From NCBI RefSeq assembly GCF_001874525.1, contig NZ_LKAQ01000004.1, forward strand, positions 2,261,590 through 2,325,589: DNA of 64,000 nucleotides, read 5' to 3'. The notes under the pieces are model-generated. The model worked only from the letters and a program-made list of their open reading frames with translations, was not told the DNA's origin and searched no databases. Shown here piece after piece: positions 3,158 through 23,698 of this stretch (within the stretch, counting starts at the first letter, position 1; the number at the start of each line of letters is the position of its first letter). Made by a program: the position numbers and the translations under genes. Source of the stretch: Pseudodesulfovibrio hydrargyri. Lineage in GTDB: Bacteria > Desulfobacterota > Desulfovibrionia > Desulfovibrionales > Desulfovibrionaceae.

Positions 3158-3335
3158 TATAGGGGGACAGCCAAGATGAGAAGGCAGAGGGTGCCGGGGA
3201 ATCCGGGCGAATATGGGACGAATGAAGGACGGGCGCGGGATTCCCGGGAATTCTTGGTTTGACGGGGGCGTCTTTCCAACTTGAGAGAGAACTCAAACGA
3301 ACAGCCGCGTTTTGACAGACAACCTGAGAAGGAGT
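3158..3335 (+). other. Left end with three putative transposase-binding sites (L1-L3)
   Basis: Three sites share a YAAnnTGAGARR-like core: CAAGATGAGAAGG (TGAG at 3177), CAACTTGAGAGAG (TGAG at 3282) and CAACCTGAGAAGG (TGAG at 3325). Their spacings, 105 and 43 bp, are close to the L1-L2-L3 layout of phage Mu. Aligning L1 with the outermost right site places the element end at 3158, where the top strand reads TATAGG rather than the TG expected at a Mu-family end. About 15 of the first 23 positions agree with the inverted right end. Confidence 0.55.
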
Positions 3336-3359
3336 CCGTCCAAACGCGGCTGTTCGTTT
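3295..3359. repeat. 18-bp perfect inverted repeat around site L3
   Basis: AAACGAACAGCCGCGTTT (3295-3312) is repeated in inverse at 3342-3359, with a 29-nt loop holding the third putative transposase-binding site. It lies just past the 3' end of the repressor gene (3369), so it may also act as that gene's terminator, though it lacks a T tract on the minus strand. Confidence 0.8.
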
Positions 3360-3368
3360 TGGCCAGGG

Positions 3369-4031
3369 CTAGGGCAGTTCTCGGCCGACCCAGACGACGT
3401 GGCCGATGATGCGCACGCCGTGTACCAGGTCCCCCTCGATGTCCACCTCTATGGGAGGATAGGCCGGGTTGTAGCTCTTGAGCAGCATTTTGCCCGGCAG
3501 CGTGTCGATCATCTTCAGGTAAACCATGTCTTCCACCCCGATGGCGTAGACCTGACCGGGGCGCGGTTCCCTTTGACTCTGGTCGATCAGAACGGTGTCG
3601 TCGTTCTCGATCTTGGGCTCCATGCTGTCGCCCGCCACGCGCATCAAAACCATTTGCGCCGGATTCCCCCGTCTGCTCAGGAACTCGTTGCGGAAGGCGT
3701 AGCGTCCGTTGACCTCGCCGCTGGATTCGAACGAGCCGGAACCCGCGGCCAACCGGGCCTGAACCAACGGAACCATGACCAACTCGGTCCCATCCATGCA
3801 AACGCGGGGGCCTTTTCCCGATTCGTCCTGCCCCGACGGTTCAATGCCTGTGACAAGCCACTGAATACTCACACCGGTTGAGTCGGCCAGAGCACATAGA
3901 AAATCTACGCTCGGGGTTCTTTCGCCACTTTCGTAGTTTCTCAATGTGTTAAGGGCGACACCAAATTGGTTCGCGTACTCCTTCTGGGACATTTTCCCGC
4001 GAAGATCTTTAATCCTTTGACCAATACTCAT
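3369..4031 (-). CDS. Phage repressor, HTH plus S24 LexA/CI-type autocleavage domain
   Basis: This is the putative master repressor of the element. An N-terminal HTH_3-type domain (about residues 5-60, MSQKEYANQFGV and following) is joined to a C-terminal peptidase S24 domain (about 85-215). The catalytic Ser136 is seen in GDSMEP and the Lys173 partner in VYLKMID, so RecA-stimulated self-cleavage, and hence DNA-damage induction, is expected. The ATG at 4031 gives 220 aa; a TTG at 4052 would add seven residues, and neither has a clear ribosome site. The gene is divergent from the early genes across an AT-rich control region, the classic lysogeny-switch layout. Mu itself uses a different repressor type; CI-like repressors occur in other Mu relatives. 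Confidence 0.88.
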   Translation of the reverse strand: MSIGQRIKDLRGKMSQKEYANQFGVALNTLRNYESGERTPSVDFLCALADSTGVSIQWLVTGIEPSGQDESGKGPRVCMDGTELVMVPLVQARLAAGSGSFESSGEVNGRYAFRNEFLSRRGNPAQMVLMRVAGDSMEPKIENDDTVLIDQSQREPRPGQVYAIGVEDMVYLKMIDTLPGKMLLKSYNPAYPPIEVDIEGDLVHGVRIIGHVVWVGRELP

Positions 4032-4094
4032 AGTGTTAAAGTCCCATGACAAAAGGTTAACGCTAACATTAACACCACGGGCAATCGATAATAC

Positions 4095-4170
4095 ACTGAT
4101 ATGATTGCAAATACTCTAATTACTACGATTCTGAACTTTAACGCAAAAAAGTGGTTGCAATATGATCAGT
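4095..4170. promoter_or_regulatory. Candidate repressor operators in the divergent control region
   Basis: ACTGATATGATTGCAA (4095-4110) and TTGCAATATGATCAGT (4155-4170) are inverted copies of one another, matching at 13 of 16 positions and separated by 44 bp. They sit between the repressor and the early operon in the only markedly AT-rich stretch of the element (about 4050-4230), which also holds GTTAACGCTAACATTAAC at 4055-4072. Two-operator DNA looping by the S24 repressor is plausible. I could not place -35/-10 boxes with confidence. Confidence 0.5.
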
Positions 4171-4348
4171 ATCGTGGTTACTAGAGGCCGTGGGCAGTCA
4201 TAAAAAATACTATTTACCAAATGCACTTTAGATGACGCCGTCCACGGGGTCAACATTCGACCTAACAAGAAACTGCTCGACCATGCCGACGCGATCCGGA
4301 CGGATGCGAGGCGGGGAGGGGGCGCAAGAAGCCATTGGAGTTGAAGCT

Positions 4349-4597
4349 ATGACCATGAGCACGAACGTGCTTGCCGGGATTGGAGCCGGCCGTGACCGAA
4401 AGCCCTTTGCGATCAAGGAATGGATGTTCGCGCGGGGGCTGACCCAGGGCGACATACGCGACAGGGTGGGCATCAGCCAGTCCGTGGTTTCCCGGACGAT
4501 CTTCGGCAGCGCGAACAACCGGCGCGTGCTGGCCTATCTGCGGGATGAAGGGTGCCCGGTTCATGCGTTGGCCCTGCCCACGGACATGAAAGCGTAA
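4349..4597 (+). CDS. Small helix-turn-helix regulator, Ner/Cro-like position
   Basis: This 82-aa basic protein has a central HTH (about residues 20-45: GLTQGDIRDRVGISQSVVSR). It is the first gene of the early operon, five bases before the transposase, the place occupied by ner in Mu. ATG 4349 is preferred over the in-frame start at 4232, because the extra N-terminus has no family-like sequence and TTGGAG at 4335-4340 fits the shorter start. A role in early-promoter control or in stimulating transposition is inferred from position only. Confidence 0.7.
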   Translation: MTMSTNVLAGIGAGRDRKPFAIKEWMFARGLTQGDIRDRVGISQSVVSRTIFGSANNRRVLAYLRDEGCPVHALALPTDMKA

Positions 4598-4601
4598 AGC
4601 T

Positions 4602-6698
4602 ATGAAAGAGTCATACACGACAAAAGAGCTTGTTGCCATTTTGGGGACAACGGCCATGACGGTCTCCCGCCGCTCCAGGCGCGAATCCTGGCAATCCAAG
4701 GCCCGCCGGGGCCGCGGCGGCGGCAGGGAGTGGATCGTCACCGGCCTCCCGGAAGACGTGCGGGCCGCGATAACCCTGCATGAGGCGAGCTCCGGCACTC
4801 CGGCACTGCCCGCCCAGGATGTGGTCATACCCGACTGGGCGCACCAGGTGGGCATGGCCCGTTTCCGGCTGGTCAGCGAATGGCGGCAGTTCGTCGGGAA
4901 GAGCAAGTCCCCCAAGGGACGGGCGACCGAGGCCTTTCTCCTTGGGATCAACGCCGGGCAGATGCTCGTCAAGGAGCATGAACTCCTCGGCGACGTGTCG
5001 GACAAGACGCTCTACCGCTGGGACAAGAGGCTGCGCGACAACGCCGAGGATTACCGCATCCTGTGCGACCGGCGCGGCAGGTGGTCGAAAGGCGGCAGGA
5101 AGGGGCTGGGGCAACTCGGGCCGGAAGCCGAAAAGGTGTTCCTCGGTTGCTGGCTGACGCCCAACAGGCCGAGCATCGCCCTGGCCTATGAGACCATGAA
5201 AGGCATTTTCGCCAAGCACGAAATCAAGGTGCCGAGCTACCGCTCCGTCGTCCGCTTCGCCCGGCGTTTCGACGAGGATCACCACGACCTGGTCGTCCTC
5301 AAGCAGGAAGGCGAGAAGGCGCTCAAGGACAAGGTTGGGCCGTACATCGCCCGCAATGACAAGCTGCTGTCTGTCGGGGACGTCCTCTTTTGTGACGGCA
5401 AGGTCCTCAACTTCCAGTGCATCCACCCGACAACGGGCAAGCCGTTTCGTCCGACGCTCATCTGCTGGTACGACTGGCGGTCCCGCATGCCGGTGGGCTG
5501 GGAGATCATGCCCTCGGAAAATACCGTGGCCATCAGCTCCGCGCTGCACATGGCCATCGGGACCCTCGCCCGGTATCCGCGTTGCGTCTACATCGACAAC
5601 GGCAAGGCCTTCCGCGCCAAGTATTTCAGCGGCGTGGACGCCGATTTCGAGGAACTCAACGGCCTGTATGCCCGGCTTGGCATCGCGGTGCAGTACAGCC
5701 GCCCCTACGAGGCCCGGACCAAAATCGTCGAGCGCTTTTTCCGCACCTTCGATTCGCAGTGCGAACGGCTTCTGCCGAGCTATGTGGGCAACTGTATAGA
5801 CAACAAGCCCGCCTGGATGAAGCGGAACGAGCAATATCACGAGGCGGCGCACAATGAATGGGTGCCCACCCTGCGCGAGGCCTCCGAAATCTTTAGGCTG
5901 TATGTCGGGTGGTACGGCCGACAGGCCCATGGCGAACTCGGCGGACAGCGTCCCCTGGATGTCCTGCACGCCGGTTTGGGTGACGGCGTGGACCTCACTG
6001 AATTGGACCGCCACTTCCTCTTCCGGCAGAAAATCCACCCCAAGCGGTGCGGATTCACCATCGGCAATGTCCGGTTTGAGTCCGACGCGCTGTACGGCCT
6101 GAATAAGCCGCTCATGGCCATGTACCGCTGGTCCGACATGGCCGAGGTGTACCTGCACACCCTCGACGGCGAACGCATCGGCACGGCCCGGCCCGTGGAG
6201 GCCCTCCATCCGCTCGCCCGCATGTTCGGCGACGAGCTTGATCTCCTCAAGGTGCGGGAAGCCAACAAGCGCCAGCGCCAGCTCAAGTCCGCCACCATGA
6301 AGATCGTGAAGGCGTTCGACGCGGAGATCGGCGAAAACGGCCTCCAATCCCTGCCGTGGATGAAGCAGGAGCGTGCCCCGCTCAAGGCCGTGCCCAAGTC
6401 CAAGAAGGCCCAGGCCGACCCCGCCCTGGACGACGCCGAAAGAGAGCGTCTGGAAGCCCTCCGGGCCAAGGTCAGGCGCCTTCCCTCGTCCGCCCTGGAA
6501 ATCCCGGACTTCTTCGCCTCCGAGTTGGAGAAGTACGAGTGGTGCTTCGAACAAGCCGTCAGGAACGGCCACGAACTCCCGAGCGAATACCAATCTTTCA
6601 TGACCGCCTACGAGGCCTCCAGGGAGTACGAGACCGCCACGGGCGCACGTTTTGATCAACTGAGGCAATTCTACCGGCAACAGAACATAGCGAGGTAA
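4602..6698 (+). CDS. Mu A-like DDE transposase
   Basis: This 698-aa protein should bind the element ends and catalyse strand transfer. The N-terminus (residues 1-55) resembles the MuA winged-helix domain (TTKELVAILGTTAMTVSRRS). The catalytic core carries Asp265 (FCDGK), Asp332 (YIDNG) and Glu377 (IVERFF), a spacing near that of MuA. A mu-transposase C-terminal beta-barrel and a basic tail follow. The length is close to MuA (663 aa) and all catalytic residues are intact. Start ATG 4602 is six bases after the previous stop, and MuB follows within 4 bp. Nothing suggests decay, so the element may still transpose if its ends are functional. Confidence 0.95.
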   Translation: MKESYTTKELVAILGTTAMTVSRRSRRESWQSKARRGRGGGREWIVTGLPEDVRAAITLHEASSGTPALPAQDVVIPDWAHQVGMARFRLVSEWRQFVGKSKSPKGRATEAFLLGINAGQMLVKEHELLGDVSDKTLYRWDKRLRDNAEDYRILCDRRGRWSKGGRKGLGQLGPEAEKVFLGCWLTPNRPSIALAYETMKGIFAKHEIKVPSYRSVVRFARRFDEDHHDLVVLKQEGEKALKDKVGPYIARNDKLLSVGDVLFCDGKVLNFQCIHPTTGKPFRPTLICWYDWRSRMPVGWEIMPSENTVAISSALHMAIGTLARYPRCVYIDNGKAFRAKYFSGVDADFEELNGLYARLGIAVQYSRPYEARTKIVERFFRTFDSQCERLLPSYVGNCIDNKPAWMKRNEQYHEAAHNEWVPTLREASEIFRLYVGWYGRQAHGELGGQRPLDVLHAGLGDGVDLTELDRHFLFRQKIHPKRCGFTIGNVRFESDALYGLNKPLMAMYRWSDMAEVYLHTLDGERIGTARPVEALHPLARMFGDELDLLKVREANKRQRQLKSATMKIVKAFDAEIGENGLQSLPWMKQERAPLKAVPKSKKAQADPALDDAERERLEALRAKVRRLPSSALEIPDFFASELEKYEWCFEQAVRNGHELPSEYQSFMTAYEASREYETATGARFDQLRQFYRQQNIAR

Positions 6699-6701
6699 TA
6701 C

Positions 6702-7394
6702 ATGCGGCAAGACATTTTCATAGAAACCGGCAACGTGGCGAAGCTGCGCAAATCCTTGAGCGCCCTGAGCGATACTGAGCGGGGCCGCCCCGGCATCGGC
6801 GTTGTCCAGGGCGAGGCCGGGCGCGGCAAGACCATGGCGGCCAGGGAATGGCACGCCGTGAACGGCGGCATCTTCCTGCGCGTGCTCGAAGGCTGGAGCC
6901 AGTTCGGTTTTTTGCAGGCGCTGACCTTTGAACTCACCGGCGAACGGCCCAACAACACCGGCCGGTGCCGGAGCCGCATCATGGAGGCCCTGGCCGAAAC
7001 GCCGCAACCGATCATCGTCGACGAGGCCGACCGCCTCCTCATGCTCCGGATCGAGGATCTGCGGGACATTCACGACATGACGGGCTGCCCCGTGATCCTG
7101 ATCGGCGAGGAAGGATTCCACCCGAAGCTCCATGCCCGCAAGCGCGTGCACTCCCGGGTGGTGGACGTGGTGAACTTCGAGCCCGTCAAGGCCGACGACG
7201 TGATGCTTTTCGCCATGCGGGCCGCCGCCCTGGAAATCTCGCCGGAGGCCAGCCACAAGCTGGCCCTGTTGGCCAAGGGCAGCTTCCGCGTGGTCTACGG
7301 CTACATCCTGCGCCTCGAGGACTACGCCAGGGCGCAAAACACCAAGGCCATCGACGCCAGGGCCGTTGAGGCCCTGCGCATCGGGAGGACCTAA
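6702..7394 (+). CDS. Mu B-like transposition ATPase
   Basis: This AAA+ target-capture protein works with the transposase: the family binds DNA as filaments, selects target sites and confers target immunity. Walker A is GEAGRGKT (residues 37-44) and Walker B is IIVDEAD (about 106-112). At 230 aa it is shorter than MuB (312 aa) and lacks the N-terminal HTH extension, as in several Mu-like prophages. It is tightly coupled to the transposase gene and to the next gene. Confidence 0.9.
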   Translation: MRQDIFIETGNVAKLRKSLSALSDTERGRPGIGVVQGEAGRGKTMAAREWHAVNGGIFLRVLEGWSQFGFLQALTFELTGERPNNTGRCRSRIMEALAETPQPIIVDEADRLLMLRIEDLRDIHDMTGCPVILIGEEGFHPKLHARKRVHSRVVDVVNFEPVKADDVMLFAMRAAALEISPEASHKLALLAKGSFRVVYGYILRLEDYARAQNTKAIDARAVEALRIGRT

Positions 7395-7396: not shown

Positions 7397-8017
7397 ATGG
7401 CGCCTTCCGACATGGACAAACTGCGCGGCGTGCTCCTCGGCCTGAGCGAGGGCGGCAAACACGAAATCAGCAACGTCCTCGTGTTCCAGGCCATGGCCCT
7501 GGAAACCGAGTCCGAGAAGGCCCGTGTGCGCCGCCAGCTCGACGTCATGGCGCGCCGGAGCGAGCTGACCCGCATCAGGCCCGGCCATTACACTTACAAC
7601 CCCGGAGCTGCCCGGCAGCGGGGCGAAGGCCATATTCGCATGTGGCGTGCCGTCCGGGCATCGACCGGGACTTTCGGCATCGCCGAGATCGCCGCCGTGT
7701 CGCATGTGGATGCGCCATCGGTCGGCAGGTACCTCAAGCTTTTGCTTTCACTCGGGCTTGTCCGGCGCAACGGCAAGAGGGGGGCGAGCCTTCTTTACTC
7801 CACGACCGCTTTGGGGCGCGACCGGCGTGAGACGCCGTATCCGCCCGTTGCTCGCCGCGATCCCTTTGCCGATGAACGTGCCGCCATGTCCCGGCTTGCC
7901 CGCGTATTTTTTGAAGAAGACCTGTATTCCGACCCGGCCCGGCAGGTTGTGGTCAGAGAGTGCAGGGCCATCTTGGAACGTTTTGACACCAGAACCGAAA
8001 AAGGAGGCTTTCGATGA
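7397..8017 (+). CDS. Early-region winged-helix DNA-binding protein
   Basis: The product is 206 aa. Two helix-rich, winged-helix-like segments can be seen, about residues 10-70 and 85-135 (FGIAEIAAVSHVDAPSVGRY, a plausible recognition helix). The second ends in a basic wing-like KRGASLLY. Position in the transposition operon and the HTH suggest a regulator of later genes, a job done in Mu by Mor and C, but no homology to those is apparent. The stop overlaps the next start (ATGA). Confidence 0.6.
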   Translation: MAPSDMDKLRGVLLGLSEGGKHEISNVLVFQAMALETESEKARVRRQLDVMARRSELTRIRPGHYTYNPGAARQRGEGHIRMWRAVRASTGTFGIAEIAAVSHVDAPSVGRYLKLLLSLGLVRRNGKRGASLLYSTTALGRDRRETPYPPVARRDPFADERAAMSRLARVFFEEDLYSDPARQVVVRECRAILERFDTRTEKGGFR

Positions 8018-8226
8018 GCCAAACCGCACGTACCAACAAGGATAACGGCTGGATCGTCAGGGGCGACGGCGCGATCAGCGGAGACATCATGAACTGCGCG
8101 GCCCGCATCCGCATCCTGGCCGACAGGCTCGCCGGCGAGGACCGCGTGGAGGCGAACAGCATCGCGTCCGCCGTGGCTGACGGGGCCATGCGCGTCAACG
8201 GCCTCGAACAAACCATCATCCGCTAG
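8014..8226 (+). CDS. Small early phage protein of unknown function
   Basis: This 70-aa protein is translationally coupled to the preceding gene by a 4-bp ATGA overlap and has an AAGGAGG-like site inside that gene. It is mostly helical by eye, with no cysteine cluster or membrane segment that suggests a role. It is kept as real because of the coupling and the compact operon. Confidence 0.6.
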   Translation: MSQTARTNKDNGWIVRGDGAISGDIMNCAARIRILADRLAGEDRVEANSIASAVADGAMRVNGLEQTIIR

Positions 8227-8234: not shown

Positions 8235-8849
8235 ATGGAAGGCAACATCACCCCGAACGGCTTTTGGAAAGACGCCAAAGGCAACCTTGTCGCACCCGGG
8301 AACGTCCGGGAATCCGACAAGCTCGCGGACGAGGTCGTCCGGGAGCTTTACGCCGATGCCCGGCGCATCAACGAGGAACTGGCAACGTTCAAGCGAAACG
8401 CCCTGGACGACATCCGCACCCATCTGGCCCTCGTGGCCGAGAAGTACGGGGTCAAGCTGCGGGGCAGGAAGGGCAATCGCGTCCTCTCCACGTTCGACGG
8501 GACCATCAAGATCACGATCAACATCCAGGACCGGATCAAGTTCGGCGAGGAACTGGTCGCCGCCGAGGTGCTCATCAACGAGTGCATGGCGGAATGGACG
8601 CATGGCGCCAACCCCAACCTGCGCACCATCGTCGAAAAGGCCTTCCAGGCGGACGCCGAGGGCAGGATCAGCGTCTACCGCATCCTCGACCTGCTCCGCC
8701 TGGAAATCGACGACGACCGCTGGCGCAGGGCCATGGCGGCCATCAAGGACAGCGTCCGCGTCATCGACAGCAAGGAGTACGTCCGCATCTACGAACGGGA
8801 CGAGAGCGGCGAATATAAACCCCTGCCCCTCAACATCGCCGCGGCCTGA
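8235..8849 (+). CDS. DUF3164-family phage protein
   Basis: The 204-aa sequence matches the DUF3164 pattern seen in the early region of Mu-like phages: an N-terminal GFWKDAKGNLVAPGNV-type motif, a charged helical middle and a C-terminal half ending in a YVRIYER motif. The function is unknown; some members are annotated as sulfate-transport-like by error. It starts at ATG 8235 with GGAG at 8226-8229. It supports descent from an ordinary Mu-like phage. Confidence 0.8.
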   Translation: MEGNITPNGFWKDAKGNLVAPGNVRESDKLADEVVRELYADARRINEELATFKRNALDDIRTHLALVAEKYGVKLRGRKGNRVLSTFDGTIKITINIQDRIKFGEELVAAEVLINECMAEWTHGANPNLRTIVEKAFQADAEGRISVYRILDLLRLEIDDDRWRRAMAAIKDSVRVIDSKEYVRIYERDESGEYKPLPLNIAAA

Positions 8850-9048: not shown

Positions 9049-9486
9049 ATGACCACACGGCATTTGAAGGAATTCGCGGACCTGTACGGCAAGGGGTTCC
9101 GTCCGTACCAGGGTGAAATTCTGCCCGGTGTATATGAGGAACTGCGGTGCAGAGACCCGAAAAAGGCGTACTGGATCTGCAAATGGCCGATCTTGTACTG
9201 CTTCGGTTGCGGCGAACGGTGCACCCCGAAGTCCTCGCAGGGCTTCCAGGTTATGCTGCCCGAACCGGCGGGGGGAAAACGCCGCCCAGCCTTTGCCCTG
9301 ACCCCAACGGAAATGTTGCGGGCGAAGTCCTTTCTGCGGGCGGACGAGGCAGCCTATTGCCTCAGTGTCAGCCCTCGCAAGGTCTACGCCATGGCCGCCG
9401 AGGGGAAACTGGTCGCCCACGTGGACAAACCCTTTCGCGTCACCGTGGAAAGCGTGAGGGAAGAGATGAACCGCATCGATATATAG
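9049..9486 (+). CDS. Cys-rich N-domain fused to excisionase-like HTH
   Basis: The 145-aa protein starts at ATG 9049 behind GGAGG at 9037-9041. Residues about 35-75 hold a zinc-ribbon-like motif (ICKWPILYCFGCGERC, then GFQVML). Residues about 95-145 form a MerR/excisionase-like HTH: FLRADEAAYCLSVSPRKVYA, followed by a basic wing. The N-domain motif is shared with a free-standing host protein at 37313-37525. It is the last gene before the intergenic gap and terminator, so it closes the early operon. A DNA-binding regulatory role is likely. Confidence 0.7.
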   Translation: MTTRHLKEFADLYGKGFRPYQGEILPGVYEELRCRDPKKAYWICKWPILYCFGCGERCTPKSSQGFQVMLPEPAGGKRRPAFALTPTEMLRAKSFLRADEAAYCLSVSPRKVYAMAAEGKLVAHVDKPFRVTVESVREEMNRIDI

Positions 9487-9796: not shown

Positions 9797-10279
9797 ATGC
9801 ACAAGAAAAGCGTCATCGTCGTCCGGGTCGATCACGGCCTCGACGGCACGTTCGGACGTATGTTCCTGCCCGGCGGCGCGGACCGCGTCAGCGTGGAGCC
9901 GCCGTGGAGGGACAACCGCACGGCCGTGTCCTGCATACCCCCCGGGAAATACGAATGCGAGATCAACGAGTCGCCGCACTTCGGGCTTTGCCCCGAGGTC
10001 CTGGGCGTGCCGGGCCGCTCGCACGTCCGCATGCACGCGGGCAACTGGGCCGGCGACGTGGAGGCGGGCCGCCGGTCCGACTCCGAGGCCTGCATCCTGC
10101 CCGGCCTGCGTTTCGCCACGCTCGACGGCCAACCCGCCGTATCCGGCTCCCGCGCCGCCCTGGCCGAACTCCTGAACGCCGTCGCCGACGGCGATCCGCG
10201 CCCCGGCACCCGCTTCGACCTCGAAATCATCGACGCCACCGGCGAGGCCGGGAGGGAGTGGGACGATGGGACTCGGTAG
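9797..10279 (+). CDS. DUF5675-family protein in the lysis cassette
   Basis: The 160-aa protein has the DUF5675 hallmarks: SVEPPWRDN, SCIPPGKYEC, VPGRSHVRMHAGN and CILPG, with His and Cys residues spaced like a hydrolase site. DUF5675 genes lie beside holins in many Proteobacterial prophages, and no classical lysozyme, amidase or transglycosylase is found in this element. A peptidoglycan-active role is therefore an inference from position. AGGGAG precedes ATG 9797. The 3' end overlaps the holin gene by 14 bp. Confidence 0.75.
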   Translation: MHKKSVIVVRVDHGLDGTFGRMFLPGGADRVSVEPPWRDNRTAVSCIPPGKYECEINESPHFGLCPEVLGVPGRSHVRMHAGNWAGDVEAGRRSDSEACILPGLRFATLDGQPAVSGSRAALAELLNAVADGDPRPGTRFDLEIIDATGEAGREWDDGTR

Positions 10280-10868
10280 CCTGCTCACCGGCGCGCTCAA
10301 ATTCATCCCCGGCATCGGGCAGATCGTCACCGCCGTGGAGGGCGTGGCGACCATAGCCGGTGCCGTGGGCGGCGAGACCGGCAGGAAGATCCAGGACGGC
10401 GTGGCCATGATCACGGACGGCCTGAAGGAAGCCGATGCCCAGCCGTTGACCGGCGAGCAGCAACTCGCCCTCAAGGAGGCGGGCCTGGCCACCACGGTCA
10501 AGCTCCGGGAACTGGACCTGGAGGACGTCGAAGGCGGGCGCAGGCTCGCCAAGGCCGAGATCGCCTCCAGCGACGAATACGTGCGGCGCACCCGGCCCCA
10601 GCTTTTGCGCTGGTACGGCAAGGGCACCTTCCTGCTCATCTTCTCGTGCGTGGCCGTGGCCTTCATCTCCGCCTTTTTCTCGTCCGTCGACAAGGACGAG
10701 GCCGCCTTCATCATCGACGTGCTCAAGTGGGCCCTGCCCACGGTCTCCGGCACGTTCCTGATGATGTACCGGTCCTACACCGGGCACCGCACCCGGGAGA
10801 AGCTGGGCGAGGCGGGCATGCAGCCGGAAACGGCCATGGACAAGGCCATCAGGCTGTTTCGGGGGTAG
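10266..10868 (+). CDS. 3TM-type phage holin
   Basis: The 200-aa protein resembles the three-transmembrane holin family also found in gene-transfer agents. It has a glycine-rich hydrophobic N-terminus (residues 1-40), a charged helical middle, the RPQLLRWYGKGTFLL motif (about 117-131), and two further membrane segments (about 120-140 and 155-175) before a basic tail. It should make inner-membrane holes that release the particles. Retention of a holin means the host is meant to lyse. Confidence 0.8.
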   Translation: MGLGSLLTGALKFIPGIGQIVTAVEGVATIAGAVGGETGRKIQDGVAMITDGLKEADAQPLTGEQQLALKEAGLATTVKLRELDLEDVEGGRRLAKAEIASSDEYVRRTRPQLLRWYGKGTFLLIFSCVAVAFISAFFSSVDKDEAAFIIDVLKWALPTVSGTFLMMYRSYTGHRTREKLGEAGMQPETAMDKAIRLFRG

Positions 10869-10871: not shown

Positions 10872-11189
10872 GTGGAGCTGCATCACATAGACCTCGCCCT
10901 GCGCATCGTCCAAGTCGTGGTCCTGCCCATCGTCGGCATGCTGCTCAAGCTGCTGCTGGACCAGCGCAGGCAGCTCGCCGAACTCGACAGGCGGATAACC
11001 ACCGCCGAGGCCTGCCTGAAGAACGTCCCCAGCGAAGAGGCCCTCCACGATCTGGCCCTGACCATCCGCGGCTTTGGCGGAGACCTGCGCGTCGCCGTCG
11101 AAAAGATCGAAGGCATGGGCCGCATCGTGGGCCGCCTGGAAAAGGTCGTCACCCGTCACGAAGACTACATGCTCAACGGGGGGAAATAG
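10872..11189 (+). CDS. DUF2730-family phage protein
   Basis: The 105-aa protein has one N-terminal membrane segment (LALRIVQVVVLPIVGMLLKL) and a following coiled-coil-like region, the usual DUF2730 layout. It starts with GTG, three bases after the holin stop. In Mu-like phages this gene sits just ahead of the terminase and head genes, which makes it a useful landmark: here the next identifiable genes already belong to the tail. An accessory lysis or membrane role is possible. Confidence 0.75.
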   Translation: MELHHIDLALRIVQVVVLPIVGMLLKLLLDQRRQLAELDRRITTAEACLKNVPSEEALHDLALTIRGFGGDLRVAVEKIEGMGRIVGRLEKVVTRHEDYMLNGGK

Positions 11190-11249
11190 GCGGCCTGTCG
11201 TCTTTAGGGCGAAGCCGGGCCGTCAGTGCGCGGACGCGGCGGTCTTTAG

Positions 11250-11264
11250 CAAGCACAGTTCGCA
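11250..11264 (+). repeat. CAAGCACAGTTCGCA repeat, copy 1 (candidate late-promoter element)
   Basis: This 15-bp sequence recurs exactly at 15238-15252. Copy 1 lies about 110 bp before the first reading frame of the tail block, in the gap left where head genes would be. Both copies precede tail gene clusters on the same strand, which suggests an activator-binding or promoter element. Confidence 0.45.
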
Positions 11265-11358
11265 TGGCTTACGGACAAAACCGGACGGGGCGGGAAGAAT
11301 AAGGCCTGAAAGTACGGCGGTCTTGGCCTGACGGGCGATCCGAAACCGGAGCCCCGGA

Positions 11359-17030: not shown

Positions 17031-17530
17031 TGGACGGCATGCTGACCTTTTCCCATGGCGAGGTGCGCCTCGGTTCCAAGCTCGTGCCGGGCATCCTCAA
17101 GAGCCTGAGCGTGCGCGGATCCGTGGTCTTCGCCGAGGCGGAGCGCGACGGGCTCTCCGGCAAGACCAAGACGCCCAAGGGGTGGGACGACAGCGCGATC
17201 TCGCTGACCGTGGAACTGCTCACGGACGAGACCTCCTGCTACGACAAGCTCGCCGCCCTGGATGCGCTGTTCCGGGGCCACGACAATGGCGCCAACCCCC
17301 GCGTCCTGGACGTGGCCAACGCCCACGTCACGGCGCGGGGCATCGAGCGTGTGGTCTTTGCCGGGCTGGATTCGTCCGAGACCGACCAGGACGACGTCAT
17401 ACAGGCTTCGCTGAAGTTCACCGAGCACCGCCCGCCCATCATCAAGGCGGAAAAGCGTGTCGGCAGGACCGGCGGAATCGGCGCGCCCGGCCCCGCTCTC
17501 GCCCGGGCCATAGGGGAGCGTTCGCGATGA
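17030..17530 (+). CDS. Baseplate/tail assembly protein (unassigned family)
   Basis: The 166-aa protein is tightly packed between tape measure and hub genes, starting inside the tape-measure stop with GGGAGG at 17015-17020 and ending in an ATGA overlap with the hub gene. It is beta-rich with a RPPIIKAEKR end. Position corresponds to Mu gp43 or P2 gpU, which connect tube and hub, but it is shorter than gp43 and I do not recognise the family. Confidence 0.7.
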   Translation: MDGMLTFSHGEVRLGSKLVPGILKSLSVRGSVVFAEAERDGLSGKTKTPKGWDDSAISLTVELLTDETSCYDKLAALDALFRGHDNGANPRVLDVANAHVTARGIERVVFAGLDSSETDQDDVIQASLKFTEHRPPIIKAEKRVGRTGGIGAPGPALARAIGERSR

Positions 17531-18318
17531 TTTCCGGCATTCGGCTGAACATCGAAGTCGGCGGCAACGTCATCGAGCGCTGCCCCCGCCTGGAGATCCT
17601 GTCCGTCCGGCACCGCCCGCTCGACATGGCCCGCGTCCACGTCCCCGATCCCGAGGGCGCGGCCGGTGACCTGTTCGCCCACGGCGATCCGGTGCGCATC
17701 GAATACGGCTATCGCGGCGGTGCGTCCGCCGAATGGCAGGGAACGTTGCGCGCCCTGGAGCGCGTCTCCCGCGACCAGGTCTGTTTGACAGCGGACAGCC
17801 TTGCGCTGCCTCTGGCCGACGCCTTTGTCACGGAGTGCTACACGGACGATTCGAGCCTTTTCGTGGCCCGCCATATCCTCGGCCACACGGGCCTGCCCCT
17901 CGGCCGGGTGGACATCCCCGACGAGGTCATTTCGCGCCTGCCCGTGTCCACGCTGCCGGTCTGGCAGGCCGTGCGGCAACTGCTGCACTCCCTGGGCCGC
18001 GCCTACGGCCACGACATGCGCCGGACCGCGCTCTGGCTCGGAGCCGACGGCCTCAACCTGGGCGATTTCGACGAATCCGGCGACCTTCCGGTCATCGCCA
18101 CCGGCGAGAATCTGATCCGCCATCTGCCCGCCCACGCGAAAGACGGCCTCCACCTGGTGGAGACCGCCTTGCTGCCGGGGCTGTCGCATTCCCGCCGTTT
18201 TCGGCTCGTAGACACGCGCCTCGGCGTCGATCGGGACTTCAGGGCGCTGGACGTGCGCCATGCGGTCACGCCCGAGGGAATCAAAACTAACATCCGGTAC
18301 GGGAGGGAACATGGCTAA
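17527..18318 (+). CDS. Baseplate hub protein (Mu gpP / P2 gpD-like)
   Basis: This 263-aa protein is the probable hub on which the spike sits. Typical features are an early beta-barrel region, the VWQAVRQLLHSLGRAYG segment (about 140-156), similar to the helix of gp44/gpD hubs, and LNLGDFDESGD with a following ENLIRHLP. It starts at ATG 17527, overlapping the previous stop, and its own stop overlaps the spike gene. Confidence 0.8.
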   Translation: MISGIRLNIEVGGNVIERCPRLEILSVRHRPLDMARVHVPDPEGAAGDLFAHGDPVRIEYGYRGGASAEWQGTLRALERVSRDQVCLTADSLALPLADAFVTECYTDDSSLFVARHILGHTGLPLGRVDIPDEVISRLPVSTLPVWQAVRQLLHSLGRAYGHDMRRTALWLGADGLNLGDFDESGDLPVIATGENLIRHLPAHAKDGLHLVETALLPGLSHSRRFRLVDTRLGVDRDFRALDVRHAVTPEGIKTNIRYGREHG

Positions 18319-19045
18319 TCCGTCCGAACTGAAAACGCTCCTCAAGCGCGTCGTCGAAATCGCCATGCCCAACCTCCGCGCCTACTACCGCGTGGTGCGC
18401 AAGGCCAAGATCGTCGCCACCTATCCGGCCGAGGACGGCCGCTACTGGGCCGACGTGCAGCCGCTGCGCAACGACGAATCCGTGGATGAAAAGGAACCGG
18501 TCGTTCCCCGCGTGGAAATCCCCGTGATGTGGGCCGGACCGAATCGCGGCGTGGTCTGCCCGCCGCTGGCCGGTTCACTCTGCGACCTGGAGTACTACGA
18601 CGGCGACCCGAACTTCCCGCGCATCTCGAATTTTCGCTGGGCCGGCAACGGCGCGCCGGCCTGCGAGGTCGGCGCTTACGTCATCCATCACAGCGACGGC
18701 ACGTACATCAAGATCGACGCGGACAGGAACATCCTGGAGATCACCCCGGCCAACGCCCGGACCCAGATCGGCGGCGACAAGGCCGTGGCGGTGGGCGGCG
18801 ACAAGACCGAGACCATCGGAGGCGTCTGGACGCTGAAATGCCCGCTGATCATCCAGGAAGGCAACGTCCAGTCCTCCGGCCCCGGCGGGGCGATAGGCAA
18901 CGTGAGTTGCAAGGCGCACACCGCGCAGGAGGGGAGCTTCACCCTGGACGGCCCGCTTGTCGTCAATGGCGGCGTGAAGATCAACGGCAACCTCGACACC
19001 TCCGGCAACAGCAATGCCGGAAGCCGGAGCGGAGGGGCGATATGA
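18311..19045 (+). CDS. Baseplate spike protein (gp45/gpV-like)
   Basis: The 244-aa protein has an N-terminal OB-fold-like domain (about 40-110; ISNFRWAGNG ends it). A repetitive beta-helix part follows, IGGDKAVAVGGDKTETIGG, typical of membrane-piercing spikes, then a glycine/asparagine-rich end (NGGVKINGNLDTSGNSNAG). ATG 18311 follows GGGAGGG. It would be the tip that punctures the target envelope. The HxH iron-binding tip motif of P2 gpV is not evident. Confidence 0.85.
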   Translation: MANPSELKTLLKRVVEIAMPNLRAYYRVVRKAKIVATYPAEDGRYWADVQPLRNDESVDEKEPVVPRVEIPVMWAGPNRGVVCPPLAGSLCDLEYYDGDPNFPRISNFRWAGNGAPACEVGAYVIHHSDGTYIKIDADRNILEITPANARTQIGGDKAVAVGGDKTETIGGVWTLKCPLIIQEGNVQSSGPGGAIGNVSCKAHTAQEGSFTLDGPLVVNGGVKINGNLDTSGNSNAGSRSGGAI

Positions 19046-19057: not shown

Positions 19058-19399
19058 CTATCCTTTGTGTAAATCGTGTAAATGGTCAATCCCGGCGGCG
19101 GTGATGCGCACTGTGTCTCCCCACACCTCGGATTGTTCCTCCACCCATTTTTTCTCCTTGCAGTACCGCACCGCCTTGGAGAACCCGGAGCCATATTCAT
19201 ATGCGGTATCCGGGAGCAGTGGCGTTATCATATCTATCGTGGAGTCATCCTCGAAGGTCTCCTTCTCCACTCTTGTTGCCTTCAAGTCCGGATCGAGATC
19301 CTTGGCGATGTCCTCCTTGCCGATCCACCCGTCATTGTCCTCGGCATCGGTGTTGTTGATCATCTCCAAAATCGCATCCGCGTACTCGACAGTGGTCAT
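19058..19399 (-). CDS. Moron: small acidic winged-helix-like protein, antisense within tail operon
   Basis: The 113-aa reading frame runs against all tail genes, between spike and gp46 genes. ATG 19399 has a strong AAGGAG site seven bases upstream; the in-frame TTG/CTG start at 19417 adds six residues without support. The C-terminal half (GFSKAVRYCKEKKWVEEQSE, then VRITAAGIDHL) has the pattern of a wHTH domain ending in a typical 'TxAGIdhL' helix. Base composition is more AT-rich than neighbours. It is an added gene, expressed separately from the tail operon and perhaps during lysogeny; function unknown. Confidence 0.65.
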   Translation of the reverse strand: MTTVEYADAILEMINNTDAEDNDGWIGKEDIAKDLDPDLKATRVEKETFEDDSTIDMITPLLPDTAYEYGSGFSKAVRYCKEKKWVEEQSEVWGDTVRITAAGIDHLHDLHKG

Positions 19400-19429: not shown

Positions 19430-19864
19430 ATGACTGACATCTTCGGACAGGACATAGCTCTCGGCCACGACATGCAGGCCCGGGTGGCCGCCAACGGCGA
19501 GCTGGTGCTCACGGACGGCCCGGATACGGGCGTGCAGGACATCATCCTTCGCCTGGATACGTACCTTGCTTCCTTGTTCTATGACAAGGGGTTCGGCTCG
19601 CTCCTGCGCGATTGGGTCTACGCCGGGAACACCGAGGAGGCGCGGATCGGCTTCGCGGCCGAGGTCAAGCGCCGTTTGAACGAGGACCCGCGCGTCCAGC
19701 CCGGTACCGTGGCCTGTACGGTCACGCGATGGGATGCGGCGTCCATGCGGGCCGAGGCCTCGTTCCGTTTCATCGACACCGACCACGAGCAAAACCTCGT
19801 CATCGCGGTCGACAAATCAAAAAAGGAAATGGTGATCAAGGATGCCGACCCCGCAGTTATCTAA
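19430..19864 (+). CDS. Baseplate wedge protein (Mu gp46 / gp25-like)
   Basis: The 144-aa protein carries the gp46/GPW-gp25 pattern: GQDIALG near the N-terminus, the RLDTYLASLFYDKGFGSLLRDWV segment (about 41-63) and a beta-strand-rich end. It begins 30 bp from the divergent moron and overlaps the gpJ gene by 23 bp. It joins sheath initiation to the baseplate. Confidence 0.8.
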   Translation: MTDIFGQDIALGHDMQARVAANGELVLTDGPDTGVQDIILRLDTYLASLFYDKGFGSLLRDWVYAGNTEEARIGFAAEVKRRLNEDPRVQPGTVACTVTRWDAASMRAEASFRFIDTDHEQNLVIAVDKSKKEMVIKDADPAVI

Positions 19865-21032
19865 GACCCTCGACGACGTGCGCTCCATGGTCTTCGGCCA
19901 CATGGAGGACGTGCAGGAGGAATACACGGCCAAGGGCTGGATGCCCGCCCGCCTGAACCTGAACAAGGGCGTGGTGCGCGGCCTCCTGGAGATATTCTGC
20001 TGGGGGCTCTACCAGCTCTACCAGCTCCTGGCCGCCGTGTTCGAGCAGGCCGCGCCGCTCACCGCCACCGACGAGGCGTGGATGGAGTGGCACGCCGAAC
20101 AGGTGGAGGCGCCGCGCAAGCAGGCCACCAAGGCCAGGGGCCTGGTCCGCTTCGCCCGCGTGTCCACCTCCGGCAACGTGCCGATTCCGGCGGGCAGGAT
20201 CGTCCGCACCGAGCCGGACGGGGCCGGGCGGGTCTACCGCTACGTCACCGCCGAGGACGCGGTCATCCGCAACGGCATGAACGAGGTCGCGGTGGAGGTG
20301 GAGGCCGAGGAATACGGCGCGGCCGCGAACGCCTCGGCAGGACAGATCACCGAAATGGTCACGGCCGTCTCCGGCGTGGACGCCGTGGCCAACGACGCCG
20401 ACTGGCTGATCTCGGAAGGCGCGGACATCGAGCCGCTGGAGAAACTCCGGGACCGGTACATCCTGCGCTGGATGGGCAACAACGGCATGACCAAGTACGC
20501 CTATGCCTCGTGGGCGCTGTCCGTGACCGGCACCGTGGCCGTCAAGGTCCTGGACCAGCATCCGCGCGGCCAGGGCACGGTGGACGTCATCGTCAAGGGC
20601 GCGGCGGGCATCCCCACCGACGCGCTGCTGGAAAATGTCCGCCAGGCCGTCACCACCGGCGCGAGGCCCGGGGAGGTGCAGGCCGGGCCGCCGGTCAACG
20701 ACGACTGGCAGGTGCGCGGTCCGCAGGCCGTGCCGCTGGCGATCGAGGCCCTGTTGACGCTCTATCCCGGCACTCATGCCGACAGCGCCAGGTCCGGGGC
20801 CGACCAGCGCCTCCGCGCCCTGTTCACCGATCCGACCACGGTCAAGGGGATCTCCCCGCTCCAGATAGGCGAGGACGTCACCCTGGACCGCCTGACAGCC
20901 GCCGTCATGGCCGTGGAGGGCGTGAAAAAGGTCGAGTGGACCTCGCCGGGCGGCGACGTGGCCGTGGCGGCGGACGCGCTCGCCACGCTGGAAAGTCTCA
21001 CCCTGACCGCAGTCGAAGCGAGCGAGGAGTAA
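19842..21032 (+). CDS. Baseplate assembly protein J (Mu gp47-like)
   Basis: The 396-aa protein has the baseplate J pattern: an N-terminal helical region, GNVPIPAGRIVRTEPDG (about 107-123), beta-rich middle with AEEYGAAANASAGQI, the GNNGMTKYAYASWAL segment (about 212-226) and the KVLDQHPRGQGTVDVIV core strand. It forms the wedge ring of the contractile baseplate. It starts at ATG 19842 within the gp46 gene, preceded by AAGGA. Confidence 0.9.
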   Translation: MPTPQLSKTLDDVRSMVFGHMEDVQEEYTAKGWMPARLNLNKGVVRGLLEIFCWGLYQLYQLLAAVFEQAAPLTATDEAWMEWHAEQVEAPRKQATKARGLVRFARVSTSGNVPIPAGRIVRTEPDGAGRVYRYVTAEDAVIRNGMNEVAVEVEAEEYGAAANASAGQITEMVTAVSGVDAVANDADWLISEGADIEPLEKLRDRYILRWMGNNGMTKYAYASWALSVTGTVAVKVLDQHPRGQGTVDVIVKGAAGIPTDALLENVRQAVTTGARPGEVQAGPPVNDDWQVRGPQAVPLAIEALLTLYPGTHADSARSGADQRLRALFTDPTTVKGISPLQIGEDVTLDRLTAAVMAVEGVKKVEWTSPGGDVAVAADALATLESLTLTAVEASEE

Positions 21033-21035
21033 GCC

Positions 21036-21680
21036 GTGGGCGCATTCAAGGACTACTTTTTCAAGACCCTGCGTTGGCCGCTCAGCCATCGGCCCGGCCC
21101 GCTGGCCATGCTGGCGGAGGGGCTGGCCCGCGCCCTGGACGAGGCCCGGGAGGACGTCATCCGGCTGCGCGACCAGTTCAACCCGTGGACCTGCGGGCCG
21201 GACATGATCCCGCCCCACGCCGGAAGCCGGGGCATCACCCGGTACGCCGCGGAGACGGACGCGCAGTTCCGCGAGCGCTGCATCCGCGCCTTCGCCTGGC
21301 AGAGCCTTGGCGGCGGGCAACTCGGCATGCCGCGAATCCTGGCCCACTTCGGCTATCGCGGCACTTCAATGCTCAACGTCCGGTTCGAGGATCCGGAGCG
21401 CTGGGCCGAATTCAAGCCCAGGGTGCCGGTTCCGGCCTCCGGCCTTCACGCGGAGGACTTTCCGCGCATCGCCTGGATAGCCAACGAGACCAAGCCCGCC
21501 CGCTCAAAGCTGGCGGGCATCCAGGTGGCCGGTTCCGTCCCGGGTTCCGTGTACGCGGGCGGCATCACCTACACGACGATCCGCGTCCGGCTGACCCCGG
21601 AACGCACGACATCCATACGCATCAACGGTGCGGTTCACGGCGGCGGGTACACGCATACCGTCGCCCGCGTCCGCGCCTAA
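21036..21680 (+). CDS. Tail protein I-like (Mu gp48 / P2 gpI-like)
   Basis: The 214-aa protein follows gpJ after 3 bp, uses GTG, and has the early WPLSHRPGPLAMLAEGLARAL and QFNPWTCGPDMIPPHAG segments of tail-protein-I-type baseplate proteins, followed by the LAHFGYRGTSM region. It links the wedge to fibres. AGCGAGGAG lies just before the start. Confidence 0.8.
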   Translation: MGAFKDYFFKTLRWPLSHRPGPLAMLAEGLARALDEAREDVIRLRDQFNPWTCGPDMIPPHAGSRGITRYAAETDAQFRERCIRAFAWQSLGGGQLGMPRILAHFGYRGTSMLNVRFEDPERWAEFKPRVPVPASGLHAEDFPRIAWIANETKPARSKLAGIQVAGSVPGSVYAGGITYTTIRVRLTPERTTSIRINGAVHGGGYTHTVARVRA

Positions 21681-21691
21681 GGAGGAAAACA

Positions 21692-23059
21692 ATGTCTCTG
21701 ATTCTCACGAAAGCCGGGCTGAACGCCTACGCGCAGTCCGAAGCGACCGGCATCAAGTTGCAGGCCACCCACATGGCCGTGGGCGACGGCGGCGGCGCGC
21801 CCGTGTCCCACACGGACACGTCCGAGGCCCTGGTCAACGAAACATGGCGGGGCGAGCTGCAAAGCATCGACGTGGCCGCATCCGGCGAGGTCGAATTCAC
21901 GGGCCACATCCCCATCACGGTGGGCGGCTGGTACATCCGCGAGGTCGCCCTCTACGCGGACGACACGCTGCTGGCCCTGGGCGGCCACCCCGAGACCTGG
22001 AAACCCGCCCCCGAGGCCCCGGACAAGGTCGAGCTGGTCATCACCGCCCCGGTCAAGTTCGCCAACGCCGACAACATCAACCTGACCGTGGACACGACCA
22101 AGGTCCTGGCGAGCCAGGAGTATGTGGCTGGCAAGATCGAGCAACACAATGCCTCTGAGGATGCGCATGCCGCCCTGTTCGCCGGGCTGGACGACCACAT
22201 TGCCCGCGACGACAACCCCCACGGCGTAGTCGCCGGACAGGTCGGCTTCACGCCGTCCGCCGGTCTGTCCTCCTCCGACGTGCAGGCCGCAGTTTGCGAG
22301 GTGATCACTCGGGCAGCGACCCATAATTATTTGATAAACGGTGCCTTTGTGATCAACCAGCGGCAATTTGCAGGAGGAGCCCTGGACGCCGGGGAATACG
22401 GATACGACCGATGGAAGGCCGGTGACGCCGGGGCGACCTGCACCGTGGCCGATGGCGTCCTCACCCTGTCGGCGGGGTCGATTGTTCAGGTGGTCGAATC
22501 CCCTGCGCTGGCGGGCGAAAAGGTGACGCTCTCCGCGAAGCTGTCCGCCGATGCGACTATTTCCGGGAAGATCAACGGAACCGCGGGGGCGTTGCCCCTG
22601 ACCGTGGACATCCCGGCGGAGTTTACCGGAGACCTCGACGTCGAGCTGATGGCCGGTGACGGCTCCGCCAGCGAAGTGAAACTGGAGATAGGCGGGACCG
22701 CAACCGCGTATCGTCACCGACACCTCCAGGAGGAACTGGCATTGTGTCAGCGCTACTACTGGCAGTCTCAGTTTGGCGACAGACATATTTGGAGCATCAG
22801 CGTCGCAGCGGGCTCGTATCACTCACAGGTGCAGGTAGAACTGCCGGTTTCAATGCGAGTCCGGCCGACAATGATGATGGAGGGGCCATGGACCTTCTAT
22901 CAGCCCGGGACCGGCGCGTACGTCGAAGGGCCTACGATCGCCGCCGCCATCTCCCATGAGAGCGTGCGTGTCTCCGTCCAAAATAGCAACAATGACAATA
23001 CCCTCAACTTTGTGCTTGGTTCCAACAACAACGAAGTGCTCGCGGACGCGGAGTTATAA
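21692..23059 (+). CDS. Tail fibre protein
   Basis: The 455-aa protein has the conserved attachment domain of phage fibres at its N-terminus (TKAGLNAYAQSEATGIKLQA, then VGDGGG and the GGWYIREVALYADD motif, about 80-95). A short repeated linker follows (HNASEDAHAALFAGLDDHI), then a carbohydrate-binding-like middle and a variable C-terminus beginning near 345 with YRHRHLQEELALCQRYYW, a motif seen in receptor-binding tips of many phages. AAGGAGG precedes ATG 21692. It decides which cells the particle recognises. Confidence 0.88.
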   Translation: MSLILTKAGLNAYAQSEATGIKLQATHMAVGDGGGAPVSHTDTSEALVNETWRGELQSIDVAASGEVEFTGHIPITVGGWYIREVALYADDTLLALGGHPETWKPAPEAPDKVELVITAPVKFANADNINLTVDTTKVLASQEYVAGKIEQHNASEDAHAALFAGLDDHIARDDNPHGVVAGQVGFTPSAGLSSSDVQAAVCEVITRAATHNYLINGAFVINQRQFAGGALDAGEYGYDRWKAGDAGATCTVADGVLTLSAGSIVQVVESPALAGEKVTLSAKLSADATISGKINGTAGALPLTVDIPAEFTGDLDVELMAGDGSASEVKLEIGGTATAYRHRHLQEELALCQRYYWQSQFGDRHIWSISVAAGSYHSQVQVELPVSMRVRPTMMMEGPWTFYQPGTGAYVEGPTIAAAISHESVRVSVQNSNNDNTLNFVLGSNNNEVLADAEL

Positions 23060-23061
23060 TT

Positions 23062-23412
23062 ATGAAAATTATCACGGTATCCCAATTTGATAATGGCCAT
23101 CTTGTGAATGGCGCGATCCATGTCCCCTACGACGAGAACAACAGACACTACCGGGCCGTTATGGATTGGCTGGCTGACGGCGGCCAGTTGGATGAAGCCG
23201 TCACCGATCCCGACGAACCGGCCAGAATCATCCGGGCCGAGCGCGACAGGCTGCTTGCGGCGTGCGATTGGATGCAGCTTGCCGACAGCCCGCTCGATAC
23301 CGCGACCAAGGCGGCCTGGGCCGCCTATCGCCAGGCGCTCCGGGACGTTCCCGAACAGCCCGGGTTCCCTGAAGCCGTGGAGTGGCCGCAATCGCCGATT
23401 CTTCCGGCATAG
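23062..23412 (+). CDS. Tail fibre assembly chaperone
   Basis: The 116-aa protein has the C-terminal signature of fibre chaperones, with RDRLLAACDWMQLADSPLD followed by WAAYRQALRDVPEQPGFP and WP. It is two bases after the fibre stop. It is needed to fold the fibre trimer and closes the tail operon ahead of a strong hairpin. Confidence 0.88.
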   Translation: MKIITVSQFDNGHLVNGAIHVPYDENNRHYRAVMDWLADGGQLDEAVTDPDEPARIIRAERDRLLAACDWMQLADSPLDTATKAAWAAYRQALRDVPEQPGFPEAVEWPQSPILPA

Positions 23413-23451
23413 CAAACCGCTCTTTGACAATCGAATAGGCAGAGCCACAAC

Positions 23452-23483
23452 AACGGCCCGCCGGACAAATCCGGCGGGCCGTT
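23452..23483 (+). terminator. Hairpin ending the tail operon
   Basis: AACGGCCCGCCGGA (23452-23465) pairs perfectly with TCCGGCGGGCCGTT (23470-23483) around CAAA. There is no T tract, but position 40 bp after the last tail gene supports a terminator. The stretch 23484-23802 holds no convincing gene; it contains the right element end. Confidence 0.75.
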
Positions 23484-23632
23484 ATCCGGAGGGACAGCGA
23501 GGCGGAGCATACCCCCCGAAACGGCATCGAACTCCCATAGGGCGACTTCGAAACAGCCTGTTCCGCCCCTCCCCGGTATCCTCGCCAACCTGCCCCTCCA
23601 GCCACCTCACACGGCAGCCGCCATGCCAAACC

Positions 23633-23675
23633 AAAATCGGCCGCGCAGGCTTTCTCAACTTATGTGGCCGATTTT
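23633..23675. repeat. 10-bp inverted repeat around right-end site R2
   Basis: AAAATCGGCC (23633-23642) and GGCCGATTTT (23666-23675) flank a 23-nt loop that contains the second right-end transposase-type site. The left end shows the same arrangement around its third site, with unrelated arm sequences. Confidence 0.6.
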
Positions 23676-23698
23676 CTCAAATTGAGTGTCAGCTTACA
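23650..23698 (-). other. Right end with two putative transposase-binding sites (R1, R2)
   Basis: Read on the minus strand inward from 23698: TGTAAGCTGACACTCAATTTG, with core TGAG beginning at 23679 (R1), then AAGTTGAGAAAG with TGAG at 23657 (R2). The 22-bp spacing equals the R1-R2 spacing of Mu. The end dinucleotide is the expected TG (CA on the plus strand). The core matches the three left sites. Confidence 0.55.

Follow-up and report, generated by a model that had tools for sequence, protein, structure and literature searches.

A headless element and its described counterparts

Tailocins usually come to notice in finished form alone. R-type tailocins are worded as having no nucleic-acid replication genes in the accessible part of PMC12090994, which also derives the R-type syringacin of Pseudomonas syringae from phage Mu. 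BceTMilo of Burkholderia cenocepacia is a headless contractile-tail prophage on a 23-kb contig with repressor, lysis, tail and integration genes; PMC5411513, in the portion available, reports synteny with KL3 and P2 and a gene for a tyrosine integrase. For Xenorhabdus, excerpts of PMC8855722 describe a headless tailocin region of P2 type and, apart from it, a complete Mu-like prophage. Mu-like prophages were also reported in Desulfovibrio piger, where the available portion of PMC12724379 reports nothing in the genomes that points to tailocins and cites a 1973 observation of tail-like particles in Desulfovibrio vulgaris. Here we describe a Mu-type element from the genome of Pseudodesulfovibrio hydrargyri (4.08 Mb, five contigs), which occupies positions 3158-23698 of a 64-kb stretch of DNA (the window) with both ends present, and which carries transposition, lysis and tail genes. 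With a probability of roughly 0.58, this is a Mu-like prophage that lost its head stepwise and long ago, and that purifying selection has since preserved as a resident producer of headless contractile tails in its host cell.

The element would work like an R-type tailocin, a class in which we do not place it because of its kept replication and transposition genes. It has the contractile tail set with open frames and no head or packaging genes; it departs from R-type tailocins in that MuA and MuB are intact and constrained and in that, among the same-genus genomes compared, it is not conserved across species at a fixed place. With Mu-like phages it shares a MuA-type transposase, a MuB ATPase and ends with site-like repeats; a 5-bp target duplication and the head and packaging genes are missing. 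The syringacin is likewise a headless contractile tail of Mu origin (PMC12090994, accessible part). It differs as a separate co-option, in Pseudomonas. To our knowledge, a transposase is absent from it.

The first-pass annotation of the window had mentioned a Mu-related tailocin in Burkholderia without naming it. The one we found, BceTMilo, is P2/KL3-like with a tyrosine integrase according to the available text of PMC5411513 and was ruled out as a Mu-type precedent; because of this integrase, retention of an integration gene in a headless element is not unique. Among the matches listed in a search of the open-access literature, judged by title, opening of the abstract and excerpts, no Mu element came up that is headless and has its transposase intact. 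Within that scope, a headless tail producer that keeps its replicative transposition module appears to be new, and it raises the question of what use replication genes are to a particle carrying no DNA.

Decay of the head block and constraint on the remaining genes

The nearest relatives of the element are prophages in two genomes of the same genus, G002 (element of 37.2 kb) and G032 (36.0 kb). They resemble it in their ends, MuA, lysis gene order and tail genes (about 62-92% identical), and differ in having the head block, a GemA region, a right-end methylase region and 5-bp target duplications. Between DUF2730 and gp37, G002 carries genes for Terminase_6N/TerL, Portal_Mu, Phage_Mu_F, a Mu-like protease, a decoration-like protein and Phage_cap_E, of which the TerL (Terminase_6N) and decoration matches fall just below the Pfam cut-offs. 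Six head-gene models (terS, TerL, portal, MuF, protease and capsid) found no match in the window. The earlier statement that head genes are missing from the element thus stands for intact genes; decayed remnants had been overlooked. Only about 400 bp of the head block is retained, in three aligned pieces (11226-11622). The head protease gene is represented by two fragments (11226-11380, plus strand) with two stops and a 2-bp frameshift, while the third piece (11391-11622, plus strand) contains a fragment of the post-capsid gene, which we take to be DUF1320, together with its upstream DNA. The open reading frame (ORF) 11359-11652, which has no PHROGs match, is the same remnant. Aligned with G002, the DUF2730-gp37 interval shows four gaps of about 5.6, 0.13, 1.75 and 0.7 kb (three gaps with G032), and because of the four gaps the head block would have been removed in about four deletions. 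The MuF protein of the G002 phage (L012:10671-11948) has a C-terminal PBECR2 nuclease-like domain, a possible head-associated toxin, which does not occur in the window.

The remnants serve as a neutral clock within the element. Substitutions were counted on the window branch where G002 and G032 agree, with G032 as the outgroup; the codon counts did not include the protease piece of 41 bp, which does not align to G032, the non-coding stretch of the third remnant, fibre residues beyond 158 or the fibre chaperone. In the head remnants scored (two pieces, 240 bp), 12 silent and 35 nonsynonymous changes were found on 57 silent and 183 nonsynonymous sites, a ratio of nonsynonymous to silent rates (dN/dS) of 0.90. 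The changes are distributed 18/15/14 over the codon positions and include two stops; the frameshift lies in a further small piece of the protease gene outside these two. Compared with the remnants by Fisher tests, which ignore linkage, dN/dS is lower in MuA plus MuB (62 silent and 52 nonsynonymous changes, 0.25, p=0.0009), in the lysis genes (26 and 25, 0.32, p=0.013), in the tail genes other than tape measure and gp37 (180 and 192, 0.36, p=0.003) and in all tail genes together (266 and 376, 0.48, p=0.03). Nonsynonymous rates per site are 0.191 for the remnants, 0.022 for the sheath, 0.018 for the tube and 0.024 for MuA, so that the remnants changed about eight times as fast as sheath or MuA on the same branch. 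No stop occurs in 14 tail and transposase genes of the window; simulated neutral change of the same 14 genes gave a mean of 3.1 stops at 0.01 changes per site (none in 4 of 200 runs) and of 6.2 at 0.02 (none in 3 of 200).

Because the remnants are neutral where the other genes are constrained and free of stops, these counts indicate that the tail, lysis and transposition genes outlasted the head under selection for most of the window branch. They also indicate that the head loss is not recent, as the remnants had time to decay neutrally. The viral contig L097 was considered for shortening the window branch and discarded, L097 and G002 being sisters (180 sites versus 65 and 56).

The same data bear on the view that this is an ordinary defective prophage in decay, functionless, with the head lost first and the rest drifting. 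Several points favour it or weigh against selective maintenance. Close relatives keep the head, and the element has been seen in a single genome; among the 8000 candidates scored, its tape measure forms a singleton cluster. Besides the head block, the element has lost the greater part of an early gene near 4262 (a scar at 4255-4330, plus strand, where the alignment shows about 390 bp missing), the region that bears GemA in G002, a membrane-protein-like ORF and the right-end region with a DNA methylase in G002; G002 and G032 have both the early gene and the two regions. Set against the G002 branch, constraint is relaxed in all tail genes (0.48 vs 0.26, p=2e-6), in the tail genes without tape measure and gp37 (0.36 vs 0.25, p=0.02) and in MuA plus MuB (0.25 vs 0.09, p=7e-4), the most relaxed tail genes being the tape measure (dN/dS 0.68) and gp37 (1.37). 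The left-end repeats are less regular than those of G002, and no target duplication flanks the element. Finally, the silent rate in the remnants, which are short in their scored part, is 0.21 and exceeds that of the tail genes (0.11, p=0.03). Silent-site constraint, a greater age of the remnants or a later replacement of parts from an intact phage may account for this; given the shortness of the remnants and their silent rate, tail or transposase genes may have been replaced in this way.

Against decay stand the eightfold faster change of the remnants and the absence of stops, which the simulation at 0.02 rarely reproduced. Most of the lost sequence, moreover, falls in the head block and accessory genes: within the tail genes the alignment with G002 is broken only by a deletion in the tape measure and a different fibre C-terminus, and the frames of the sheath, tube, tape measure, baseplate and fibre genes are all open. 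Lysis genes show no relaxation against the G002 branch (0.32 vs 0.31). We consider decay unlikely, and the first-pass view that the tail frames are not simply awaiting it is supported, lysis genes, MuA, MuB and most tail genes having stayed constrained beside neutral head remnants. For a tail producer under purifying selection, the loss of the head block and of the right-end DNA methylase would fit a particle that carries no DNA.

Head genes elsewhere in the genome, a possibility the first-pass annotation had named as damaging to its proposal, were sought with portal, TerL and capsid queries and not found. Phage_portal and Phage_cap_E, which matched control genomes, had no match in the own genome, nor had Portal_Mu, a family that matched no control genome. 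The Portal_Mu search thus had no working control and was repeated using the portal and TerL proteins of G002: at E 0.01 each matched in nine of ten genomes, and the own genome was the miss. This bears on a further explanation, a satellite equipped with its own tail, lysis genes and transposase that would use the heads of a helper Mu-like phage. Kept ends, MuA, MuB and tail beside a lost head would suit such a satellite, and head-bearing relatives exist in the genus (G002, G032) and among viral contigs such as L097, an IMG/VR contig of 39 kb with tail genes about 74-93% identical that differs from the window in having all six tested head genes. With no portal, TerL or capsid match in the own genome and no packaging site or helper known, we regard a satellite as very improbable.

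Ends, mobility and the distribution of head loss

The boundaries given in the first-pass annotation proved correct. All three elements (window, G002 and G032) open with the same 18 bases, TATAGGGGGACAGCCAAG, and close with the same 12, TGTCAGCTTACA; these set the left boundary at 3158 and the right boundary at 23698. Within the left end (3158-3335) three MuA-site-like repeats AANNTGAGAAA with at most one mismatch stand at +16, +121 and +164, each with one deviation in the window element, and two further repeats lie 16 and 38 inward in the right end (23640-23698). All five agree in position with those of G002 and G032 to within 2 bp. Repeats of the AANNTGAGAAA type occur five times on the plus and five times on the minus strand of the 64-kb window, and five of these ten stand at the element ends. 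By their arrangement they are putative MuA sites, to which MuA would bind.

A nickel-dependent hydrogenase gene (1358-3076; PF00374) precedes the element. In 15 of 29 loci from other genomes of the genus (seven aligned) the site is free of the element and the flanks lie close together. The G002 and G032 elements, which are inserted at other sites, are flanked by the 5-bp target duplications ATGAA and ATGTT, respectively; the window element has GCGGC on the left and TTGGG on the right and therefore no duplication. About 200-300 bp of flank present in the empty site of G002 is missing beside the right end of the window element.

It had been proposed that the element could spread by transposition, as a headless weapon that MuA still moves and that is passed on as a mobile tailocin. 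The element does keep MuA and MuB as well as both ends, with five site-like repeats in place, dN/dS of MuA plus MuB is 0.25 where the head remnants are neutral, the site is empty in other species, and the missing right flank would agree with the transposase having produced an adjacent deletion. On the other hand, the genome holds a single copy without a target duplication, MuA and MuB are relaxed compared with the phage branch, and a headless element cannot exit the cell by itself. Spread is improbable on this evidence, and the proposal was not borne out.

The first-pass annotation had suggested looking for conserved head loss among related genomes, and a loss in one genome with the head kept by close relatives was named there as contradicting its proposal; the latter is largely what we found. 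Relatives of the sheath occur in 10 of 148 related genomes and, in a search of 36 genomes of the genus, in four (own genome included in both counts). In eight of the nine other sheath genomes there is a close portal match, and head genes precede the sheath; in G053 the portal is on a separate contig, with protease and capsid genes ahead of the sheath. The portal itself occurs in 16 of the 148 genomes, eight of which are without this sheath, and is not usable as a control for tail loss. Among the same-genus carriers only the window's element is headless and has MuA. G011, of the same genus, contains a headless locus (L016:1-13675) in which the left half is replaced and the tail genes are kept, with no MuA match in the genome; upstream of its tail we observed apparent insertion sequence (IS) elements and sugar-transfer and export genes, judged by eye from translations. 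A contig of the same-genus genome G005 carries MuA and is too short to judge its head content. On these comparisons the head loss is lineage-specific within the sampled genus.

Public scans added 32 genome loci and 63 viral loci with the sheath, from which the own genome was possibly left out. At least 5.5 kb upstream of the sheath was available for 63 of the 95 (duplicates kept): 49 show at least two Mu-type head genes and 14 one or none. Nine of these 14 were rejected since PHROGs or Pfam showed a different head type or a terminase, and two for having TerL, which leaves three headless loci, L102, L067 and L091. L102 contains a 60-base stretch identical to G011 and probably is the same genome. 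The others point to parallels of the head loss in other Desulfobacterota. In L067 (Desulfoluna butyratoxydans) the repressor (S24), DUF3164, Mor, DUF5675, a weak DUF2730 and the tail follow in this order, as in the window, and the sheath is 65% identical; it differs in having the Mor activator and no room for MuA or MuB. The gene before gp37 in L067 resembles the post-capsid gene by eye, with no Pfam match. As a headless, transposase-free, Mu-derived tail locus L067 is itself a candidate tailocin; in L066 (Desulfoluna spongiiphila) the contig begins too near the sheath to judge.

L091, a 7.3-kb contig cut at both ends from a metagenome-assembled genome of Desulfobacterales, resembles the window in being headless and in having an AAA_22 ATPase at the MuB position, DUF3164, an M15 peptidase, a gene at the DUF2730 position, gp37 and the sheath. 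It reads AAA_22 ATPase, DUF3164, GemA, Mor, M15 peptidase, a DUF2730-position gene, connector genes, gp37 and sheath, MuA and most of the tail falling beyond the contig, and differs in keeping connector genes, GemA and Mor. Relative to the head-bearing contig IMGVR_UViG_3300035039_000258 it has a single deletion that spans about 6.9 kb and shows a 10-bp overlap where the two sides join, which could be an assembly error. We also screened 75 viral DUF3164 loci with the tail models of this family, which detect no other tail types, and found no sheath, hub, spike or gpJ in their downstream DNA, of varying length up to 10 kb. One tail family thus includes, side by side, head-bearing progenitor phages and headless forms both with and without the transposition module; with the decayed head fragment as clock, the sequence of losses can be tested.

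We infer the weapon function, the role of MuA and MuB and the mobility of the window element from these genes. DNA damage would inactivate the S24 repressor; MuA and MuB would then replicate the element within the chromosome and raise the dosage of the late genes. Lysis and tail genes would be expressed, tails would assemble, and the cell would lyse and release particles that kill cells recognised by the fibre. Only tentatively do we propose a transposable tailocin, in which selection keeps MuA, MuB and the ends since, through replicative transposition, copies of the tail operon would accumulate as the cell dies, and in which the head was apparently lost with the transposition genes kept at least twice in Desulfobacterota (the window and the short contig L091). 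If true, phage replication would become a gene-dosage amplifier for a weapon.

Gene content of the element and its surroundings

Gene calls were supported by Pfam and PHROGs matches. From left to right the element reads S24 repressor, small HTH protein, MuA, MuB, two early ORFs, DUF3164, an HTH protein in the Mor slot, lysis genes, DUF2730 and the tail block. The gene list of the first-pass annotation was thereby substantiated for the repressor, MuA, MuB, the lysis genes and the tail set; its hub has only a match of no known function and its holin falls below the cut-off (see below). The repressor, of the HTH plus Peptidase_S24 (LexA/CI) type, is encoded on the minus strand at 3369-4052 (PF00717, 1.4e-22; phrog_4, 3.1e-51); the genes named in the following lie on the plus strand unless stated otherwise. 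A small HTH regulator (4340-4597) in a Ner-like position shows weak matches to phrog_1373/6831 and one nonsynonymous change on the window branch. MuA comprises 698 aa (4602-6698; phrog_310, 1.1e-96), 92% identical to G002 and 83% to G032. Of its catalytic triad, noted earlier as intact, the aspartates D265 and D332 align with PDB 4fcy; the third residue, presumably the E in KIVERFF, lies outside that alignment. MuB follows at 6702-7394 (phrog_296, 3.3e-41; AAA_22), then a winged-helix early protein (7397-8017; phrog_32597, 7.5e-47; HTH_IclR weak), a small early ORF (8014-8226; 71% to G002, no PHROGs match) and the DUF3164 protein (8235-8849; PF11363, 1.4e-69). The HTH protein in the Mor slot (9049-9486; phrog_33310; HTH_17 below cut-off) is matched in six of nine relatives' regions and by its position is a candidate late activator.

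The lysis cassette consists of a DUF5675 protein, assigned by position (9797-10279; PF18925, 7.3e-25), and a holin-like membrane protein (10266-10868) that matches GTA_holin_3TM at 20.9 bits, below the Pfam cut-off of 24.8. DUF2730 (10872-11189; PF10805, 2.4e-06) is the last gene ahead of the lost head block.

Behind the remnants, the tail block opens with the gp37-position protein (11649-12188; phrog_28903, function unknown), named by position, and a small ORF (12169-12366) matched in eight of nine relatives' regions. The sheath (12377-14071; DUF2586, PF10758, 1.2e-91; phrog_907) has 564 aa and exceeds the 386 positions of the DUF2586 model; positions 188-269 of its profile weakly match solved phage decoration proteins (E 0.016 and 0.045), and the extra segment is perhaps an inserted Ig-like domain. 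It is followed by the tube (14071-14499; phrog_4579, tail protein, 2.7e-43; tube by position) and a minor tail protein in the chaperone position (14534-14839; phrog_20303, DUF6848). The tape measure (15294-17030; phrog_28) has 578 aa, about 100 residues fewer than in the closest relatives (677-683 aa), with an apparent in-frame deletion at a 23-bp repeat (15682-15704). The gpN-position protein (17033-17530; phrog_1398, function unknown) and the hub-position protein (17521-18318; only phrog_33423, function unknown) are likewise named by position. The baseplate/spike protein (18308-19045; phrog_4011) weakly matches a solved chimera containing T4 gp5 (E 0.0064). Between it and the gp46 gene lies a small ORF on the minus strand (19058-19399) with no Pfam match and no relative in the 105 compared sequences; at the same spot G002 carries different ORFs, and G032 has no additional DNA.

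Next come the gp46-like baseplate protein (19430-19864; phrog_975, phrog_261) and the gpJ-like baseplate wedge (19842-21032; phrog_6, 1.3e-58), and these are followed by the gpI-like tail protein (21036-21680; phrog_48), the tail fibre (21677-23059; phrog_4492, phrog_1780) and the fibre chaperone (23062-23412; phrog_4912). The N-terminal part of the fibre is common to the relatives; the part after residue 165, searched alone, had no match in the 105 compared sequences, in all of which the sheath was found as positive control. Elsewhere in the window, an AAA_31/ParA-type ATPase gene (47395-48387, minus strand), next to the ORFs 48479-50728 and 46744-47340 without Pfam matches, lies in a region (47001-49000) where the G+C content drops to 0.50.

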